Positions 7,111-40,043 of a stretch of 64,000 nt of DNA are shown piece by piece. The notes beneath the pieces are model-generated. The model had not been told where the DNA came from and searched no databases. It was given only the letters and a program-made list of their open reading frames with translations. The DNA comes from Candidatus Brocadia sp. (GTDB taxonomy: Bacteria; Planctomycetota; Brocadiia; Brocadiales; Brocadiaceae). The DNA lies in assembly GCA_021646415.1 (NCBI GenBank), contig SOEU01000001.1, positions 310,001 to 374,000 on the forward strand, written 5' to 3'. The position numbers were made by a program, and so were the translations under genes. How positions within the stretch are numbered: position 1 is the stretch's first letter; every line of letters begins with the position of its first letter.

Positions 7111-7131
7111 TTTGTACATAATTGAAATTCA

Positions 7132-7210
7132 GGCGATGGAGTTCGCCCAACGCTATGTGATAGCTGATAACTCCTATTGAAGCCAGATACTTCGATAGGA
7201 GTTTTTTATT
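7132..7210 (+). promoter_or_regulatory. Fluoride riboswitch (crcB motif) with terminator
   Basis: The aptamer starts GGCGATGGAGTTCGCC, continues AACGCTATGTGATAGCTGAT, then ACTCCTATTGAAG. This follows the crcB consensus, including the GGAGT segment that pairs with ACTCC. The ACTCCTATTGAAG segment also pairs with CTTCGATAGGAGT, followed by TTTTTT, forming the intrinsic terminator of an ON switch that is relieved by fluoride. The layout matches the well-studied Bacillus cereus element nearly base for base. The first downstream gene encodes a 66-aa unknown protein, not a fluoride channel. Confidence 0.93.
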
Positions 7211-7580: not shown

Positions 7581-7804
7581 GTGAAGGTGGATTCGGCGGA
7601 AAAACCAACGCCTTAATCGTTCGACTGAGCGCTCACGACGAAGTCCGCCCTAGTTATAACCGGAACTCGTGCTGTGAAACGAAATTATATCAAATGTTTC
7701 TGCTCAATCAAAGACGATTGAGCCAGCGGAGTCGCTGAGGCGTTGACTTGTCAGATCCGAAGGACGTTACACTTGATGCTTTTATTATGTGGAGGAATTC
7801 TACT

Positions 7805-9607
7805 ATGTTGGAAGAATTTATAAGGCATAAAACAGAAATACTGGGCACCATTGAAAATACTGTTGATTTGATAAAGGATGATACGAGGGCCGTGGATAAC
7901 AGGCTACTTATGGTCAAGGAACAGTTGATATCGAATTGTTTTAATCTGGTAATTTTAGGACAATTTAAAAGGGGCAAGACGACGCTTATTAACAGTATGA
8001 TCGGTAAGGAAATACTCCCTTCTTCCGTAGTACCACTGACGTCTATTGTGACGATCCTGAAGTATGGCGAAGAGGTTAGCTGTGTGGTCTCTATGGAGGA
8101 CGGCAGTGAAAAGAAGATTTGCATAGAGGAACTTCCTGATTATGTAACGGAGAAAGGTAATCCCAAAAATATACGGGGCGTACGATGCGCACGCATCGGG
8201 TATCCATCCCCTTTCCTTGAAAAAGGGATACTGCTGGTAGACACGCCGGGCGTAGGGTCCACCTTCCTGCACAACACAGAAACGACCTATGAATTTTTAG
8301 ACCATCTGGATGCGGCATTGTTCCTCATGAGCGCCGATGTCCCCATCTCGCAGGTGGAAAAAGAACTCCTCGTTACCATCAAAGGTTCTACCCAAAAGAT
8401 ATTCTTTGTGTTGAATAAGATCGATAATCTGACTCCGAAAGAGATAGAAGAAATAGCCGCCTTCAATAAACAGGTATTGGAGGAGATGGGGTTTACCGTT
8501 CAGGAAATCTGGCCTATCTCCGCAAGGGAAGCATTAAAGGCAAAAATAGCGAACAATGACGTTCAACTTTCCCAGAGTGGCCTTTTGAACCTGGAAGATG
8601 CCTTAGGGAGTTTTCTCTCTTTAGAAAAAGGGAAAATCGTTCTCAATACCACCATATCCAAGACAAAGCGGGTCATCTCCCGGATACTATCCCAGATAGC
8701 TATTGAAAGAAAGACCATGGAAGCATCCGGGGAGGAGTTAGAAAATAAGATCAACACCTTTCATCAGCTTGTAGCGATCCTGAAGCAAGACAGAGCAGAT
8801 ATGAAATATCTGCTCAAAGGCGAATCGGACAAGCTGTGTTTCAAGGTGGAAGGGATGTTAAAGATTTTAGAAGAAAAGGAGACCCCGGGAATAAAGCAGT
8901 GTCTTATGGATTTCTATGAAAAAAATGCCGATCTCAATCCAACCGTCTTAAGGGACGGAATGCAAAAGGTTATCAAGGATGAGATCGTTAAAGAATTCGA
9001 TGCATTCAGAAAGGATGCGGAAAAGGAAATCTTAAATACAATCCAGGAAACTTGTAATCGTTTTACAAGACGTTCCAATAATATCATCAATGAGTTTAAA
9101 ACGGCCGCAGAAATACTCTTTGAGGTATCCATGGAACAATGTGAATTTTCCGTTGAACTGGCCAGGGATACTGGTTTTTATTACATGGTCCAGGAATATA
9201 CAGCCCCCACGGAAGAAGAGGTCAAGTCCATCCTGCGCACCTTCCTGCCGAAATCCCTGAGCAGAAAGATGGTCTTGAACGAGATGATGGAGCGGGTATC
9301 CTCCGATGCAGGCAGGAACTGTGGCAGGATACGTTCTGACCTCACAGCAAGGATCAGTAAAACCATTGACCATTACTCCAAGCAACTGAAAGATCTTGGG
9401 AGCGATCTTATTGCTCAGATAGAACAGGCCATACAAAAGGGACAAGAGCGGCGAAGGGCTGGTAGCGAGTCAGTACGGATCGAGCTAGAGTTATTGGCAA
9501 ACAAGACCAAAACCCTGGAAGAGTACAAAGAAAATCTGGAGAAGGTATGGAATATCGTAAATCTGACTGAGATAAGCCATGAACAAAAAAGTGTGGCGAT
9601 GGCCTAG
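7805..9607 (+). CDS. Dynamin-like GTPase
   Basis: A 600-aa protein of the bacterial dynamin superfamily, membrane-remodelling GTPases. The G1 motif GQFKRGKTT is at residues 52-60, with conserved threonine region VVPLTS after it, G3 DTPGVGS and G4 NKID downstream. The C-terminal half is helical with coiled-coil character. The ATG at 7805 is chosen because GGAGG at 7791-7795 precedes it; a TTG at 7748 adds 19 residues without support. No second dynamin gene is adjacent, although pairs are common. It lies between two fluoride riboswitches, but the terminator at 7531 separates it from the first. Confidence 0.85.
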   Translation: MLEEFIRHKTEILGTIENTVDLIKDDTRAVDNRLLMVKEQLISNCFNLVILGQFKRGKTTLINSMIGKEILPSSVVPLTSIVTILKYGEEVSCVVSMEDGSEKKICIEELPDYVTEKGNPKNIRGVRCARIGYPSPFLEKGILLVDTPGVGSTFLHNTETTYEFLDHLDAALFLMSADVPISQVEKELLVTIKGSTQKIFFVLNKIDNLTPKEIEEIAAFNKQVLEEMGFTVQEIWPISAREALKAKIANNDVQLSQSGLLNLEDALGSFLSLEKGKIVLNTTISKTKRVISRILSQIAIERKTMEASGEELENKINTFHQLVAILKQDRADMKYLLKGESDKLCFKVEGMLKILEEKETPGIKQCLMDFYEKNADLNPTVLRDGMQKVIKDEIVKEFDAFRKDAEKEILNTIQETCNRFTRRSNNIINEFKTAAEILFEVSMEQCEFSVELARDTGFYYMVQEYTAPTEEEVKSILRTFLPKSLSRKMVLNEMMERVSSDAGRNCGRIRSDLTARISKTIDHYSKQLKDLGSDLIAQIEQAIQKGQERRRAGSESVRIELELLANKTKTLEEYKENLEKVWNIVNLTEISHEQKSVAMA

Positions 9608-9688
9608 CGCGGCGGAGTTGCAACTGGACAGATGCAACCGGGACGGTTGCGCTGCCGGTTAAAATTCTAAACGTTTAATTAATATTTA

Positions 9689-9757
9689 GGGCGATGGAGT
9701 TCGCTTAACTGCTACGTTGTAGCTGATAGCTCCTGTTGAAGTTGTTCTTCGATAGGG
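9689..9757 (+). promoter_or_regulatory. Second fluoride riboswitch, apparently orphaned
   Basis: GGGCGATGGAGTTCGCTT, then AACTGCTACGTTGTAGCTGAT and AGCTCCTG reproduce the crcB aptamer. CTCCTGTTGAAG pairs with CTTCGATAGGGG before TTTTTT, giving the terminator. P-stem bases differ from copy 1 in compensating or wobble positions, indicating a real second copy. The next 330 bases contain no gene; the first coding remnant downstream is a truncated PII gene, so its original target is probably gone. Confidence 0.85.
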
Positions 9758-10938
<1,181 letters not shown>

Positions 10939-34127: not shown

Positions 34128-34406
34128 CTAATTGCCACCAGCAATGGCAGGCACTATGGAAATATAGTCGCCATCTTTTACAGACGTATTTAGATTACCC
34201 ATAAACCGAATGTCTTCATCATTGAGATAAAAATTAATAAACCTCCTGATTTGACCGTCATTGTCACAAATTCTCTCTCTAATTCCCTTATAATTTGTTT
34301 CAAGATTATCAATAATGTCTTTAATATTTTTTCCCTCCGCCTTTACCTCGTCTGCACCCTTGGTAAGGGTTCTTAGTGGTGTTGGAATGCGTACCGTTAC
34401 TGGCAT
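34128..34406 (-). CDS. ThiS/MoaD-like sulfur carrier
   Basis: A 92-aa ubiquitin-fold protein: MPVTVRIPTPLRTLTKGADE, then FYLNDEDIRF and ISIVPAIAGGN. The diglycine is followed by one extra residue (N), so a protease would have to trim it before thiocarboxylation, as JAMM-type proteases do for CysO- or HcyS-like carriers. It lies 180 bases downstream of the ThrC-like gene on the same strand, under the same SAM-I riboswitch if transcription reads through. No moa or thi genes are nearby, arguing against molybdopterin or thiamine roles. Confidence 0.85.
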   Translation of the reverse strand: MPVTVRIPTPLRTLTKGADEVKAEGKNIKDIIDNLETNYKGIRERICDNDGQIRRFINFYLNDEDIRFMGNLNTSVKDGDYISIVPAIAGGN

Positions 34407-34586
34407 ATTTATGCTCCTTTCGGGTTTTCAAAAATTATCATAAAATCGTAACTAAAAAATATCAAAATGTATGTAAATTAGAGAGTTATCATACTGTTAA
34501 AAAAATGTTCAAAAGAATATTTCTTCTATTTTACGTTTTGATTTATAAAGGTCTGAGGTAGCACCTTGCTAAGAGGCTGATTACTT

Positions 34587-35831
34587 TTAATGTACTGCTG
34601 CCATCTTCTCTTCCATAATCGCATCAAATTCAGAGAGGGAAGGGTTGATGATTTTTGGTACTTCTAATTTGTCCAGTACAGCCTCCTGGGTTTTTAGGCC
34701 ATTTCCCGTAACACTGATTACAATGGACTCATCCTGTGGTATTTTGCCCTGTTCGATAAGTTTTTTTGTAACCGCCACAGTTACACCGCCCGCTGTTTCT
34801 GTGAAGATACCTTCCGTTCTGGCAAGTAATTTAATACCCTCTACGAGTTCATCGTCGGTTACATCCTCTGCCCATCCTCCGGACACATTAATGGACTTCA
34901 CAGAATAATAACCGTCAGCCGGATTGCCGATTGCTATTGACTGGGCAATAGTCCTGGGCTTTACAGGTTTTATCACGTCGGTTACCTGCTTAACAGCTGT
35001 GGTTATCGGTGAGCTGCCGCTTGCCTGGGCGCCATGGAGCCTGGTATCTGCTTTATCGATAAGACCTAGTTTTACGAATTCTTTAATAGCCTTTTCAATC
35101 TTCGTAATCAAGGACCCGCCTGCCATGGGAACTACAATATGTTGTGGTGCTTTCCATCCTAGTTGTTCTATGATCTCATATCCATAGGTCTTTGAACCCT
35201 CTCCATAGTACGGTCTCAGATTTACATTCACGATTGCCCAGCCATATTTATCAGCGATCTCAGAGCAAAGCTTGTTTACGTTGTCATAGTTTCCTCTGAC
35301 TTTTATCACATTCGTACCATAAATCAGGGTGCCAATAATCTTACCCTGTTCAAGATCGGCAGGCATAATAATATAACTTTCCAGCCCAGCCTGCACGGCC
35401 TGTGCTGCTACTGCATTTCCCAGATTTCCTGTTGTGGCACATCCGACTGTTTTATATCCAAATTCCTTTGCCTTTGTCAGGGCCGTCGAAACAACCCGGT
35501 CTTTAAAGGAGAACGTGGGATAATTCACGGAATCGTTTTTCACATACAGTTCTTTTACTCCAAGTACCTTGGCAAGGTTGTTTGCCTTGACAAGGGGCGT
35601 GAAACCTACCTGAGCGCCAACCGTTGGTTCACCATCCACCGGAAGCAGTTCCTGATAACGCCACATTGTTTTGCCGCGGGATTCGATCAGTTTTCTGTTC
35701 AAAACCTTCTTAATTCCGTCATAATCATAATCGACTTCCAAAGGGCCAAAACAAAAGCTGCAGACATGAAGTGGCTCTTTTGGATATGGTTTTCCACACT
35801 CCCGACACTTTAGACCTTTTACAAATCCCAT
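34587..35831 (-). CDS. thrC: Threonine synthase-like PLP enzyme under SAM-I control
   Basis: A 414-aa fold-type II PLP enzyme. An N-terminal zinc ribbon uses C9, C12, C24 and C27. The PLP lysine is K110 in PTFSFKDRV, with TGNLGNAVAAQA and AGGSLITKI as phosphate loops. Standard ThrC converts O-phosphohomoserine to threonine. GGAGG precedes the ATG. The leader carries a complete SAM-I riboswitch, odd for threonine synthesis but expected for methionine synthesis, and a sulfur carrier gene follows. It may therefore make homocysteine from O-phosphohomoserine and carrier thiocarboxylate, as CysM does for cysteine with CysO. Family call is firm; the alternative reaction is a hypothesis. Confidence 0.9.
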   Translation of the reverse strand: MGFVKGLKCRECGKPYPKEPLHVCSFCFGPLEVDYDYDGIKKVLNRKLIESRGKTMWRYQELLPVDGEPTVGAQVGFTPLVKANNLAKVLGVKELYVKNDSVNYPTFSFKDRVVSTALTKAKEFGYKTVGCATTGNLGNAVAAQAVQAGLESYIIMPADLEQGKIIGTLIYGTNVIKVRGNYDNVNKLCSEIADKYGWAIVNVNLRPYYGEGSKTYGYEIIEQLGWKAPQHIVVPMAGGSLITKIEKAIKEFVKLGLIDKADTRLHGAQASGSSPITTAVKQVTDVIKPVKPRTIAQSIAIGNPADGYYSVKSINVSGGWAEDVTDDELVEGIKLLARTEGIFTETAGGVTVAVTKKLIEQGKIPQDESIVISVTGNGLKTQEAVLDKLEVPKIINPSLSEFDAIMEEKMAAVH

Positions 35832-35942
35832 CTGTTGCCTCCATTCATTTTTGATAAGGACGCAGATTTCCGCAACTATACATGATAATAAATACTCCCG
35901 TTACATCCTGATAAACTGTGTTAATCTGTGTCCAATCAAGCA

Positions 35943-35992
35943 AATAAAAAGGCCTCTTTCTATTCAAATAAGATAGGAAGAGGCCTTTTTAT
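35943..35992 (-). terminator. SAM-I riboswitch expression platform (terminator)
   Basis: On the minus strand AAAAAGGCCTCTT pairs with AAGAGGCCTTTTT around a 24-base loop region, directly after the aptamer. This gives SAM-dependent termination before thrC, 110 bases upstream of its ATG. Confidence 0.88.
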
Positions 35993-36000
35993 GTACCTAT

Positions 36001-36118
36001 CTTATCTTTTCCCAAAACACGAGACAGGAATTAGCACCAGCATCTTGCACAGCTTTTTGCTGAACAAGACCGGTTGCTGTGGCTTCACAGGGCCAGTCCC
36101 TCTGCCACTCTCGATAAG
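36001..36118 (-). promoter_or_regulatory. SAM-I riboswitch (S-box)
   Basis: The minus strand reads CTTATCGAGAGTGGCAGAGG, GACTGGCCCTGTGAAGCC, CAGCAACCGG, then GGTGCTAATTCC and GATAAG. These are all the conserved S-box blocks, with P1 formed by CTTATC and GATAAG. SAM binding would favour the terminator at 35943-35992 and switch off the gene behind it. The only downstream genes are the ThrC-like enzyme and the ThiS/MoaD-like carrier. Confidence 0.96.
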
Positions 36119-36136
36119 ATGAATAATATTTTTGCA

Positions 36137-36165
36137 ATTGTAACGGAAAATATGTGTCCTGTCAA
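36137..36165 (-). promoter_or_regulatory. Promoter for SAM-I riboswitch transcript
   Basis: On the minus strand TTGACA (36165-36160) and TACAAT (36142-36137) are 17 bases apart and end about 19 bases before the aptamer. Confidence 0.75.
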
Positions 36166-36202: not shown

Positions 36203-37513
36203 TCAATTTAAGCAGTTTATCACAATGCCGGTGATTAACTTCGGATAAAAATATGTCGACTTAGGGGGCATAACCTTGCGTGCCATGGCGATTTCTTTTA
36301 CCTGTTCAATAGGGGTGGGGTTAAGAAAGAATGCCAATTGATACTGGCCGGATTGCACGAGCGATACGGCCTCTGCTTCATCCTTTACGTATTTCACGTA
36401 GTCTTTCACGGTTACATCATCGGAATTTATACCCAGTATTTTGTTGATAATCATACCATGAAGGATACCCGCATCCAGATGCTTCCATTCGGGATGGTCT
36501 TTGGCGAATACTGCATCAAGTAATTTTTCATTGCCAAGCCGCAATTTATAATAGGCGTCTTCCTGACCAGCGTACATTATAAAGGTATGGCCTTTAGTTT
36601 CATCGTTGAGGCTCGACATAAAATCCTCTACCCGGCACCCCTTGCCTAACAGCTCGACCTCAAAAGACTCTTGTATCGATTGTAAAATCCGGTCAAAGCG
36701 ATAATTCTTTATATTACGTACGAGCCGATGGGCCGGCAATATCTTCAACCCATTATTGTTCATCGACACGCATACCATCATCACATAGTCTGAAGGCAAA
36801 TCATCTCCATTCCGGATGTTTTCTTTACGCATTTGTTCTTTGTAAACCAATGCAGTTTCGTAACGATGGTGTCCATCGGCTATAAAAAGGGGTTTCTCCT
36901 TCATGAGAGCAACTAAATTGTCGATAGTCTGTTTTTCCTTTATTACCCAAAGCTTATTTTTTACTCCGGTATCGTCTAAAAAATCCACCTCGGGTCTTGT
37001 GATAGTTGTCATTGACAGATAAGTATCGATTGCGTTATTATCGTCCGGGAAAAGGGCAAATATAGAACTGAGGTTGGCCCGGCACGATTGGGTAAGTTTT
37101 AGCCGATCTGCCTTTGGACCAGGAAGTGTTTGTTCGTGAGGGTAGATGTATCCTTTGTCAAAGGGTTCCAACTTCACCAACGCAATGAAGCCTCTCCTGA
37201 CCAGCCATCTGTTGCCAGACAAAAATTTTTGATCATAAATATATATTGCCGGGTCATCTTCCTGCTTAAGGATACCTTTTTCCCTCCAGCTCTTGAGCAA
37301 TTCAGCAGCACGGGTATATTTGTTGGTTTTTTCTGTATCGCAGGAGAAGTCCTTTCCCAAATCCAAACGAATAATATTATTGGGGTGAGCCTGGTAATAC
37401 CGCTCTTGCTCTTGCGGAGAAATTACATCATAAGGGGGTGTCACAACGGCCGAAATGTCCGTAATGACGTCTTGATTGTATCGTAATCCACGAAACGGTT
37501 TAATAATGGCCAT
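36203..37513 (-). CDS. DUF1015 family protein
   Basis: A protein of 436 aa from the ATG at 37513 (MAIIKPFRGLRYN), 7 bases after the ahcY stop; upstream in-frame starts lie inside ahcY and are rejected. Conserved DUF1015 segments include VVTPPYDVISPQEQERY, HEQTLPGPKADRL, FIADGHHRYETAL and PTPIEQV. The family is often found beside serine or SAM-cycle genes and its reaction is not established. It is the last gene of a metK-ahcY-DUF1015 unit. Confidence 0.88.
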   Translation of the reverse strand: MAIIKPFRGLRYNQDVITDISAVVTPPYDVISPQEQERYYQAHPNNIIRLDLGKDFSCDTEKTNKYTRAAELLKSWREKGILKQEDDPAIYIYDQKFLSGNRWLVRRGFIALVKLEPFDKGYIYPHEQTLPGPKADRLKLTQSCRANLSSIFALFPDDNNAIDTYLSMTTITRPEVDFLDDTGVKNKLWVIKEKQTIDNLVALMKEKPLFIADGHHRYETALVYKEQMRKENIRNGDDLPSDYVMMVCVSMNNNGLKILPAHRLVRNIKNYRFDRILQSIQESFEVELLGKGCRVEDFMSSLNDETKGHTFIMYAGQEDAYYKLRLGNEKLLDAVFAKDHPEWKHLDAGILHGMIINKILGINSDDVTVKDYVKYVKDEAEAVSLVQSGQYQLAFFLNPTPIEQVKEIAMARKVMPPKSTYFYPKLITGIVINCLN

Positions 37514-37520
37514 ATTCCAA

Positions 37521-38798
<1,278 letters not shown>

Positions 38799-38876: not shown

Positions 38877-40043
38877 TTAAACAACGGCAGCTTTTCGCAA
38901 GGCATCCACCATGTCTGTCTTTTCCCATGTAAACGTGTCCTCTGGGCGACCAAAATGACCGTGACGGGCCGTGATCTTATAAATCGGTCTTCTGAGTTTT
39001 AACCGATCGATAATACCCTTTGGGGTCATATCAAAAACATTTTCGCAAATTTGGGTAAGCTTTTCATCGGAGATCTTGCCTGTACCTTCGGTAGCGATGT
39101 GGATGGCAAGGGGCTTTGCCACCCCAATAGCATAAGCTACTTGTGCTTCGCATCGGTCTGCCAGGCCGGAAGCTACTACATTTTTTGCGACATGTCTGGC
39201 AGCATAGCAAGCACTTCGATCAACCTTCGTTGGATCTTTTCCTGAAAAAGCACCCCCACCGTGACGTCCCCACCCGCCATACGTATCAACGATAATCTTT
39301 CGCCCTGTTAAGCCGCAGTCCCCCTGGGGGCCACCGATCACGAAACGTCCTGTTGGATTAATATGGTAAATCGTTTTACCATCCAAGAGGTTTGCTGGTA
39401 TTACCTGTTTCGCAATCTTTTCAATCATATCATCTTTTATGGTCTCGTATTTTACATCCGGTGCATGTTGGGTAGAAATAACTACGGTATGTACCCTGAC
39501 AGGGGTATGATCCTGATATTCAACAGTAACCTGAGATTTTGCATCGGGACGGAGATATTTCAATGTCCCGTTTTGCCGTAATTCGGCAAGTTTTATAATA
39601 ATTCTGTGTGCCAGCATGATAGGAAGCGGCATGAGTTCCGGGGTATCATTGCAGGCATAGCCAAACATCATACCTTGATCACCTGCTCCGTGCTCTTTAT
39701 AGAGACCTTCGCCACTCACACCTTGTGAGATATCCGGTGATTGTTTGCCAATACTGGTAAGAACCGCACAGGTATTATAATCGAATCCCATTGAAGCATC
39801 ATTGTAACCAATTTCTTTTATGGTATTTCTTACAATATCAGGAATATTTACATTGGCTTTTGTAGTAAATTCTCCCGCTACAAAAGCAACACCTGTCGTC
39901 ACCAATGTTTCACATGCTACCCGGCTCATCGGGTCTTGCTCAAGCATTGCATCCAGCACTGCATCGGATATCTGGTCAGCGACTTTATCCGGATGTCCCA
40001 TGGACACTGATTCTGAGGTAAATACATGCCTTCCTTTCTTCAT
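38877..40043 (-). CDS. metK: S-adenosylmethionine synthase
   Basis: A 388-aa enzyme making SAM from methionine and ATP. Motifs: [32 protein letters not shown] and [16 protein letters not shown]. The ATG overlaps the stop of waaA by ATGA, so metK is co-transcribed with it. Notably no SAM riboswitch precedes metK itself; the one in the window is further downstream before thrC. Confidence 0.98.

Follow-up and report, generated by a model that had tools for sequence, protein, structure and literature searches.

A SAM-I riboswitch upstream of a MetM-type ThrC homologue and a sulfur carrier in anammox bacteria: a probable homocysteine-synthesis operon

Why should a riboswitch for S-adenosylmethionine (SAM) stand in front of a homologue of threonine synthase and a small sulfur-carrier protein? 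This arrangement is found in a 64,000-nucleotide stretch of DNA (hereafter the window; contig SOEU01000001.1, positions 310,001 to 374,000, assembly GCA_021646415.1) from the anammox planctomycete Candidatus Brocadia. The unit occupies 36165-34128 of the minus strand and comprises, in reading order, a promoter, an S-box (SAM-I) aptamer, a terminator, a gene for a ThrC-like enzyme (ThrC2) and a gene for a carrier of the CysO/MetO type. An enzyme of this general kind, MetM, is the homocysteine synthase of Streptomyces, with homologues among cyanobacteria (Hasebe 2024, Appl Environ Microbiol 90:e01247-24, as cited in Kim 2025, PMC12172450), and the available text of the latter paper gives its reaction as the conversion of O-phosphohomoserine to homocysteine. 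Comparison of sequences across many genomes leads us to the view that the Brocadia unit is very probably an operon for homocysteine synthesis, repressed by SAM and of the MetM/MetO kind.

The regulatory element is well defined. The aptamer (35999-36120, minus strand) matches the entire RF00162 model at 86.5 bits (E 4.2e-19), where the gathering score is 44.4, and is followed by an expression platform, the combination by which we recognise a SAM-I riboswitch. The 3' strand of its P1 helix (36006-35996) can pair either inside the aptamer or with residues 35977-35968 of a terminator hairpin (35985-35951; -22.0 kcal/mol, inverted repeat 95% over 20 nucleotides, then a T run), the second pairing giving a computed antiterminator that spans 36006-35968. 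This is the usual attenuation layout. The computed folds amount to -72.6 kcal/mol with P1 closed and the terminator formed and -59.8 kcal/mol with the antiterminator enforced; since the closed form is thus favoured by 12.8 kcal/mol without ligand, switching would be kinetic. Bound SAM would be expected to keep P1 closed, leaving the terminator to form and shutting the operon off. Directly upstream of the aptamer is a sigma-70-like promoter, TTGACA-17-TACAAT (36165-36137), with 11 of 12 consensus matches; promoter-like sites in the region number 7 against a shuffle mean of 5.8 (sd 2.4), which is no excess, so the case for this promoter is one of placement and score only. The ThrC2 start codon, an ATG preceded by GGAGG, lies about 170 nucleotides past the aptamer, and 180 nucleotides separate the ThrC2 stop from the start of the carrier gene. 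A promoter-like site upstream of the carrier (34465-34437, minus strand; 10 of 12 matches) is at chance level and may be accidental. Each of the elements named in a preliminary description of this DNA, including the zinc ribbon and K110 of the ThrC-like protein and the AGGN end of the carrier, is where it was placed, on the minus strand.

The association of enzyme, carrier and riboswitch is strongly conserved. Among 29 Brocadiales genomes, the source genome (G000) included, the ThrC2/carrier pair is present in 28; the carrier, likewise found in 28, is next to ThrC2 in every one of them. In a scan of named genomes, identities are 95-98% in Ca. Brocadia, 90-92% in Jettenia, Loosdrechtia and Kuenenia, and 77-79% in Scalindua, which places the window in Ca. 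Brocadia or a very close genus. ThrC2 is truncated by contig ends in G016 and G018. G014, a genome rated 99% complete, gave no match to ThrC2, to the carrier or to the separate ThrC (ThrC1) discussed below. The loci L033 and L034 are without their upstream side, leaving 26 testable relatives, and an S-box precedes the pair in 24 of these (20/20 loci, plus L028, L029, L030 and L035). A genome-wide search of nine genomes found exactly one S-box in eight, each time upstream of ThrC2 and the carrier, and none in G021; scoring in eight of the nine covered only 150 first-look candidates, so that weak additional S-boxes are possible.

The same association extends beyond the anammox bacteria. A wider scan kept the best 80 of 490 relatives, more distant ones falling outside its view, and at 76 of the 80 loci the carrier gene is downstream, on the same strand and within 0.65 kb; L078 and L079, for which no carrier was counted, sit near a contig end. 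The RNA scan covered 44 of these loci and detected an S-box at 35: at all four scanned anammox-type loci (L056, L060, L079 and L092), at 28 of 28 titled Zetaproteobacteria, Mariprofundaceae, Mariprofundus, Ghiorsea or (L120) Proteobacteria, and at three of five from other Planctomycetota (L082, L096 and L097, not L080 or L084). None was detected at L094. Genes neighbouring the 80 loci (E 1e-6) encode E1 enzymes (37), NIL-domain proteins (36), CysK/M (33) and sulfite reductase (20), all confined to 40 loci that are non-anammox by name or identity; E1 and NIL genes were not seen, at the same threshold, at the 40 anammox-type loci (L043-L079, L081, L083 and L092). The actinomycete Nonomuraea has the same gene order, with an S-box of 68.7 bits and 51% identity for both enzyme and carrier, and it has a second carrier elsewhere in its genome. 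The Nonomuraea record (NZ_LT559118.1, L155; 11.85 Mb) is filed as a plasmid, and its size suggests a chromosome.

What kind of enzyme is ThrC2? The protein (34587-35831, minus strand; 414 residues), a probable homocysteine synthase, has a PALP domain (238 bits); its zinc-ribbon residues C9, C12 and C24 and the lysine K110, which would hold pyridoxal 5'-phosphate (PLP), are invariant in 29 aligned rows, and C27 is almost so. Its predicted structure (mean predicted local distance difference test, pLDDT, 85.2; predicted template modelling score, pTM, 0.86) is nearest to threonine synthases, 2c2b giving Z 42.3 (root-mean-square deviation 2.3, 374 residues aligned) and 1v7c giving Z 35.2 (2.4, 319 aligned). 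Cysteine synthases are absent among the best 50 structural matches listed, which is no argument against carrier binding. Against PRK08197 the protein scores 289.5 bits, below the cut-off of 303. Identity as a cysteate synthase was rejected (TIGR03844, 68.6 bits against a cut-off of 324.9). In a 38-row tree a single 25-row clade (support 100/99) holds ThrC2 with its relatives and the protein from Nonomuraea, separate from ThrC1 and from ThrC encoded on other plasmids or chromosomes; the tree drew long-branch warnings, the Nonomuraea row included, and S. albulus MetM is not among its rows. A fecal contig (L169, MT836106.1, an unverified 'Bacteriophage sp.' that is possibly bacterial DNA) carries a ThrC-like gene of 40.5% identity, whose product falls outside this MetM-type clade.

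The two classes also differ at defined positions. Fifteen alignment columns separate them: one residue is shared by at least 24 of the 25 MetM-type rows, and a different one by at least 6 of the 7 canonical rows. Canonical Arg, Asn, Gln and Thr are replaced by Y209, R206, S213 and L137, respectively, in ThrC2, and the canonical loop GNAGN by A(G/S)(G/S)S(L/Q) in the MetM-type proteins; where the canonical rows have N-S-x-N-x-x-R-x-(E/Q)-G-Q-K, ThrC2 departs from the motif with N-V-N-L-R-P-Y-Y-G-E-G-S-K. The canonical Arg, Asn, Gln and Thr correspond to residues that we take to bind substrate in the threonine synthase of T. thermophilus.

Could ThrC2 nevertheless be a second threonine synthase, or a synthase/deaminase, with the S-box apportioning O-phosphohomoserine between threonine and methionine? 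The protein does score as a threonine synthase (TIGR00260, 288.8 bits against a cut-off of 167.1), as its top structural matches would suggest. A Microcystis homologue, at 51.6% to MetM, acted mainly as a threonine synthase on O-phosphohomoserine in vitro and as a threonine deaminase at high threonine, and, as far as the available text of that study goes, seemingly does not act fully as MetM in the cell and is without a SAM riboswitch (PMC12172450). The source genome, however, already encodes another ThrC, one that bears the canonical motif, and a ThrC1-like match occurs in 27 of the 29 Brocadiales genomes (partial in G022; not found in G014 and G025). A second threonine synthase would leave the carrier adjacency (28/28; 76/80) unexplained, it is difficult to see why SAM should repress threonine synthesis alone, and the four positions replaced in ThrC2 are fixed in all seven canonical rows. 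We consider this explanation unlikely.

The carrier (34128-34406, minus strand; 92 residues, ending AGGN) belongs to the ThiS family (57 bits), and its closest solved relative is M. tuberculosis CysO (3dwg, E 1.1e-24). Each of the 28 Brocadiales genomes with a carrier has one such CysO-like protein, apart from G019 with two short extra pieces. The enzymes that might process and charge it are widely present: a JAMM protease was found in 28 of the 29 genomes (not in G019), and an E1 above cut-off also in 28, G016 being the exception. The JAMM gene of the source genome is on a different contig from ThrC2 and the carrier, C18 (L040 7269-10367), in a row of sulfite-reductase-C-like, DsrE-like, CysM-like, JAMM and TusA/YedF-like genes that includes no carrier gene; solved relatives of the CysM are O-acetylserine and O-phosphoserine enzymes alike. 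On contig C11 the gene for a MoeB-like E1 precedes one whose product has a rhodanese-like sequence, rhodanese being our own reading of the sequence and not a model match. Among the carriers gathered, 11 stop exactly at Gly-Gly, most others listed have at most 11 extra residues, and 12 have a longer tail. At six loci (L080, L082, L084, L094, L096 and L097) carrier, Gly-Gly and NIL domain share one open frame, implying that a protease would have to cut past Gly-Gly before the carrier could be charged; such fusions suggest a processed precursor. Two small proteins near carriers have Pfam support for NIL (44.8 and 59.3 bits).

These observations bear on a different explanation, that the carrier serves CysM only and stands beside ThrC2 for joint regulation, ThrC2 itself using free sulfide or another nucleophile. 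Its kinship to CysO, the lack of an own carrier in the CysM/JAMM/TusA operon and the single CysO-like carrier per genome all fit such a role. Yet it is by ThrC2, not CysM, that the carrier stays in 28/28 Brocadiales genomes, and the same linkage is kept in Nonomuraea, which owns its second carrier. A carrier for CysM alone seems to us improbable.

Is homocysteine instead made by one of the established routes? The DUF39 route can be set aside, as PF01837 matched in none of the 29 Brocadiales genomes and in 3 of 14 controls. No credible MetX was found in the 29 genomes (MetA was not searched): the sole TIGR01392 match, in G007, has 20 bits over 61 residues, while 9 of 14 controls match this model, none above its 500-bit cut-off. 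PF01053 is more complex. All 29 genomes have a match above the Pfam cut-off of 27 bits, and the match is long in only seven: G000, G001, G003, G005 and G026 (above 530 bits), G006 (174 to 380; 300 bits) and G024 (180 bits). The remaining 22 reach less than 50 bits at best and cover the model only in part, and we read such matches as probably other fold-type I PLP enzymes; the per-genome counts are complete, and the individual matches are those among the matches listed. The ThrC2/carrier pair is retained in 21 of these 22 genomes. A further 28 genomes were reached through the loci, and a long PF01053 match is present in 13 of them (five of Mariprofundus type with 411-428 bits, four other Planctomycetota, G046, G051, G052 and G053) and missing from 15; at least three of the 28 (G048, G049 and G053) appear to be the already counted G002, G013 and G024, and completeness is not stated for the set.

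The PF01053 enzyme of the source genome, on contig C17, scores 531 bits against PRK07811, cystathionine gamma-synthase (cut-off 513), and adjoins a CBS-like gene, which is the gene order of reverse transsulfuration. That homocysteine comes from this MetB/CGL-type enzyme, and that ThrC2 and its carrier do something else, is most improbable, given this gene order, the missing MetX (MetA aside), the absence from G000 of a second long PF01053 match that could serve the MetC step, and the 22 relatives without any long match, nearly all of which have the pair.

The preliminary description had proposed that O-phosphohomoserine and carrier thiocarboxylate yield homocysteine here, in a genome expected to hold a second thrC, a JAMM protease and an E1-like enzyme and to lack metX/metY or metB/metC. 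The three expected genes are all present in G000. The expected absence is borne out for MetX (MetA aside) and qualified by the single MetB/CGL-type enzyme beside its CBS-like gene; a complete met route with a sole thrC is thus not what the genome contains. The reaction itself has gained comparative evidence and a published precedent in MetM, and for this particular protein it is still a prediction.

We conclude that a homocysteine-synthesis operon is supported by the S-box, the conservation of the pair, the second ThrC, the missing DUF39, MetX and (mostly) PF01053 enzymes, the presence of JAMM and E1, the separate clade and its residues, the NIL fusions and the MetM/MetO precedent. The substrate of ThrC2, the carrier as sulfur donor and the response to SAM are all inferred from this comparison. 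In the mechanism we envisage, the carrier would be cut to Gly-Gly by the JAMM protease, adenylated by the MoeB/ThiF-type E1 and converted to a thiocarboxylate. ThrC2 would bind O-phosphohomoserine on PLP and, as threonine synthase does, eliminate phosphate to give a beta,gamma-unsaturated intermediate; at this point threonine synthase adds water to C-beta, whereas ThrC2 would let the carrier sulfur add to C-gamma and so yield homocysteine, a step suggested by the chemistry of the family and by MetM. Threonine would be made by the separate ThrC.

Several observations weigh against this conclusion. To the TIGR00260 score and the behaviour of the Microcystis homologue must be added two loci, L056 and L092, that have an S-box and a ThrC-like gene with other genes and no carrier within 5 kb downstream. 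No S-box was found at L031 and L032, one family among the 26 testable relatives, nor at any of six scanned Nitrospinota/Nitrospirota loci. The source genome and six relatives do have a long PF01053 match, and in five Mariprofundus-type genomes that match is of MetY size. Finally, no methionine synthase of the PF02574 (MetH/BHMT) or PF01717 (MetE) type was found in the source genome (MesB was not searched), so that the path from homocysteine to methionine is left incomplete there; PF02574 occurs only in G021 and G024 (27 of 29 without), and PF01717 only in G002, G003, G005, G008, G009 and G010 (23 of 29 without). One of the two loci L056 and L092 is titled Kuenenia hertensis.

We can suggest, tentatively and at somewhat less than an even chance, that one carrier, controlled by the sole S-box found in the genome, feeds both CysM, for cysteine, and ThrC2, for homocysteine, and that the last step to methionine falls to an enzyme that belongs to neither of the families searched, MetH-type and MetE-type. 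Sulfur would then enter both amino acids through a single protein thiocarboxylate. The operon in any case offers a plausible homocysteine route for anammox bacteria, in which the known routes searched are mostly missing, and genome-based calls of methionine auxotrophy would therefore be unsafe. Public profile models still label ThrC2 as threonine synthase.

The immediate upstream neighbours of the unit, all on the minus strand, are a DUF1015 gene (36203-37585; PF06245, 321.5 bits), ahcY for S-adenosylhomocysteine hydrolase (37521-38780) and metK for SAM synthetase (38877-40043); profile matches confirm these three earlier assignments. Elsewhere the window contains two fluoride riboswitch aptamers on the plus strand (7123-7183, 44.2 bits; 9681-9742, 42.1 bits), which flank a dynamin-like GTPase of 619 residues (7748-9607; Dynamin_N, 94.7 bits); the open reading frame list has no further plus-strand frame of at least 90 residues between the first aptamer and the GTPase. 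An Acido-Lenti-1 RNA (RF01687) lies at 10007-10052 on the minus strand (43.5 bits, gathering score 37).

How does the Brocadia unit compare with known systems? It differs from threonine synthase, whose fold (Z 35 to 42), PLP lysine and TIGR00260 match it shares, in the separate clade of ThrC2, its 15 class-distinguishing residues, its link to a carrier and its S-box. With CysO, CysM and Mec+ of M. tuberculosis it has in common a carrier nearest CysO, a fold-type II PLP enzyme, and JAMM and CysM elsewhere in the genome; the carrier's neighbour here is ThrC-like, in contrast, and CysM keeps company with JAMM on contig C18. Carrier-dependent homocysteine synthesis, as proposed here, is reportedly also the function of HcyS, HcyD and HcyF with MetY in Wolinella, a system attributed to Krishnamoorthy and Begley in 2011. 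MetY is a PF01053 enzyme that uses O-acetylhomoserine, whereas no PF01053 enzyme stands beside the carrier here, and both long PF01053 matches and MetX are missing from most relatives. NIL/ferredoxin proteins are required for homocysteine synthesis in Desulfovibrio vulgaris, according to the part of the report available (Price 2018, PMC5764234), and NIL domains beside or fused to carriers outside the anammox bacteria link the carrier route to this domain of the DUF39/NIL-ferredoxin/COG2122 pathway, which differs in its PF01837 protein, found in none of the 29 Brocadiales genomes. Among earlier surveys, one describes gene neighbourhoods that combine a carrier with E1, JAB and cysteine synthase, as well as carriers that occur with O-acetylhomoserine sulfhydrylase, and in the portion available mentions threonine once, in another sense (Iyer et al. 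2006, PMC1779556); a contiguous-riboswitch survey of 2025, in the text at hand, puts thrC under T-boxes (PMC12452182).

The closest parallel is MetM/MetO of S. albulus, which likewise has a ThrC-like enzyme and a carrier. The sulfur is reportedly donated to MetM by MetO. From Nonomuraea the Brocadia locus differs in its carrier, which ends AGGN and not at Gly-Gly, and in the one CysO-like carrier of the source genome, against two. In the available text, a SAM riboswitch lies upstream of S. albulus metM, and the Microcystis MetM homologue is adjoined by a gene similar to S. albulus metO, annotated as a sulfur carrier (PMC12172450); the earlier view that such a pairing of ThrC and carrier behind an S-box was undescribed thus falls. 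What sets the anammox bacteria apart, with Nonomuraea and not S. albulus supplying the sequences compared, is that a set resembling MetM/MetO, known from Streptomyces and with cyanobacterial homologues, forms the one S-box target found throughout an order of Planctomycetota; the set recurs under an S-box in Zetaproteobacteria. ThrC2 and its carrier are most likely a widespread new branch of the known MetM/MetO route, not a new route.

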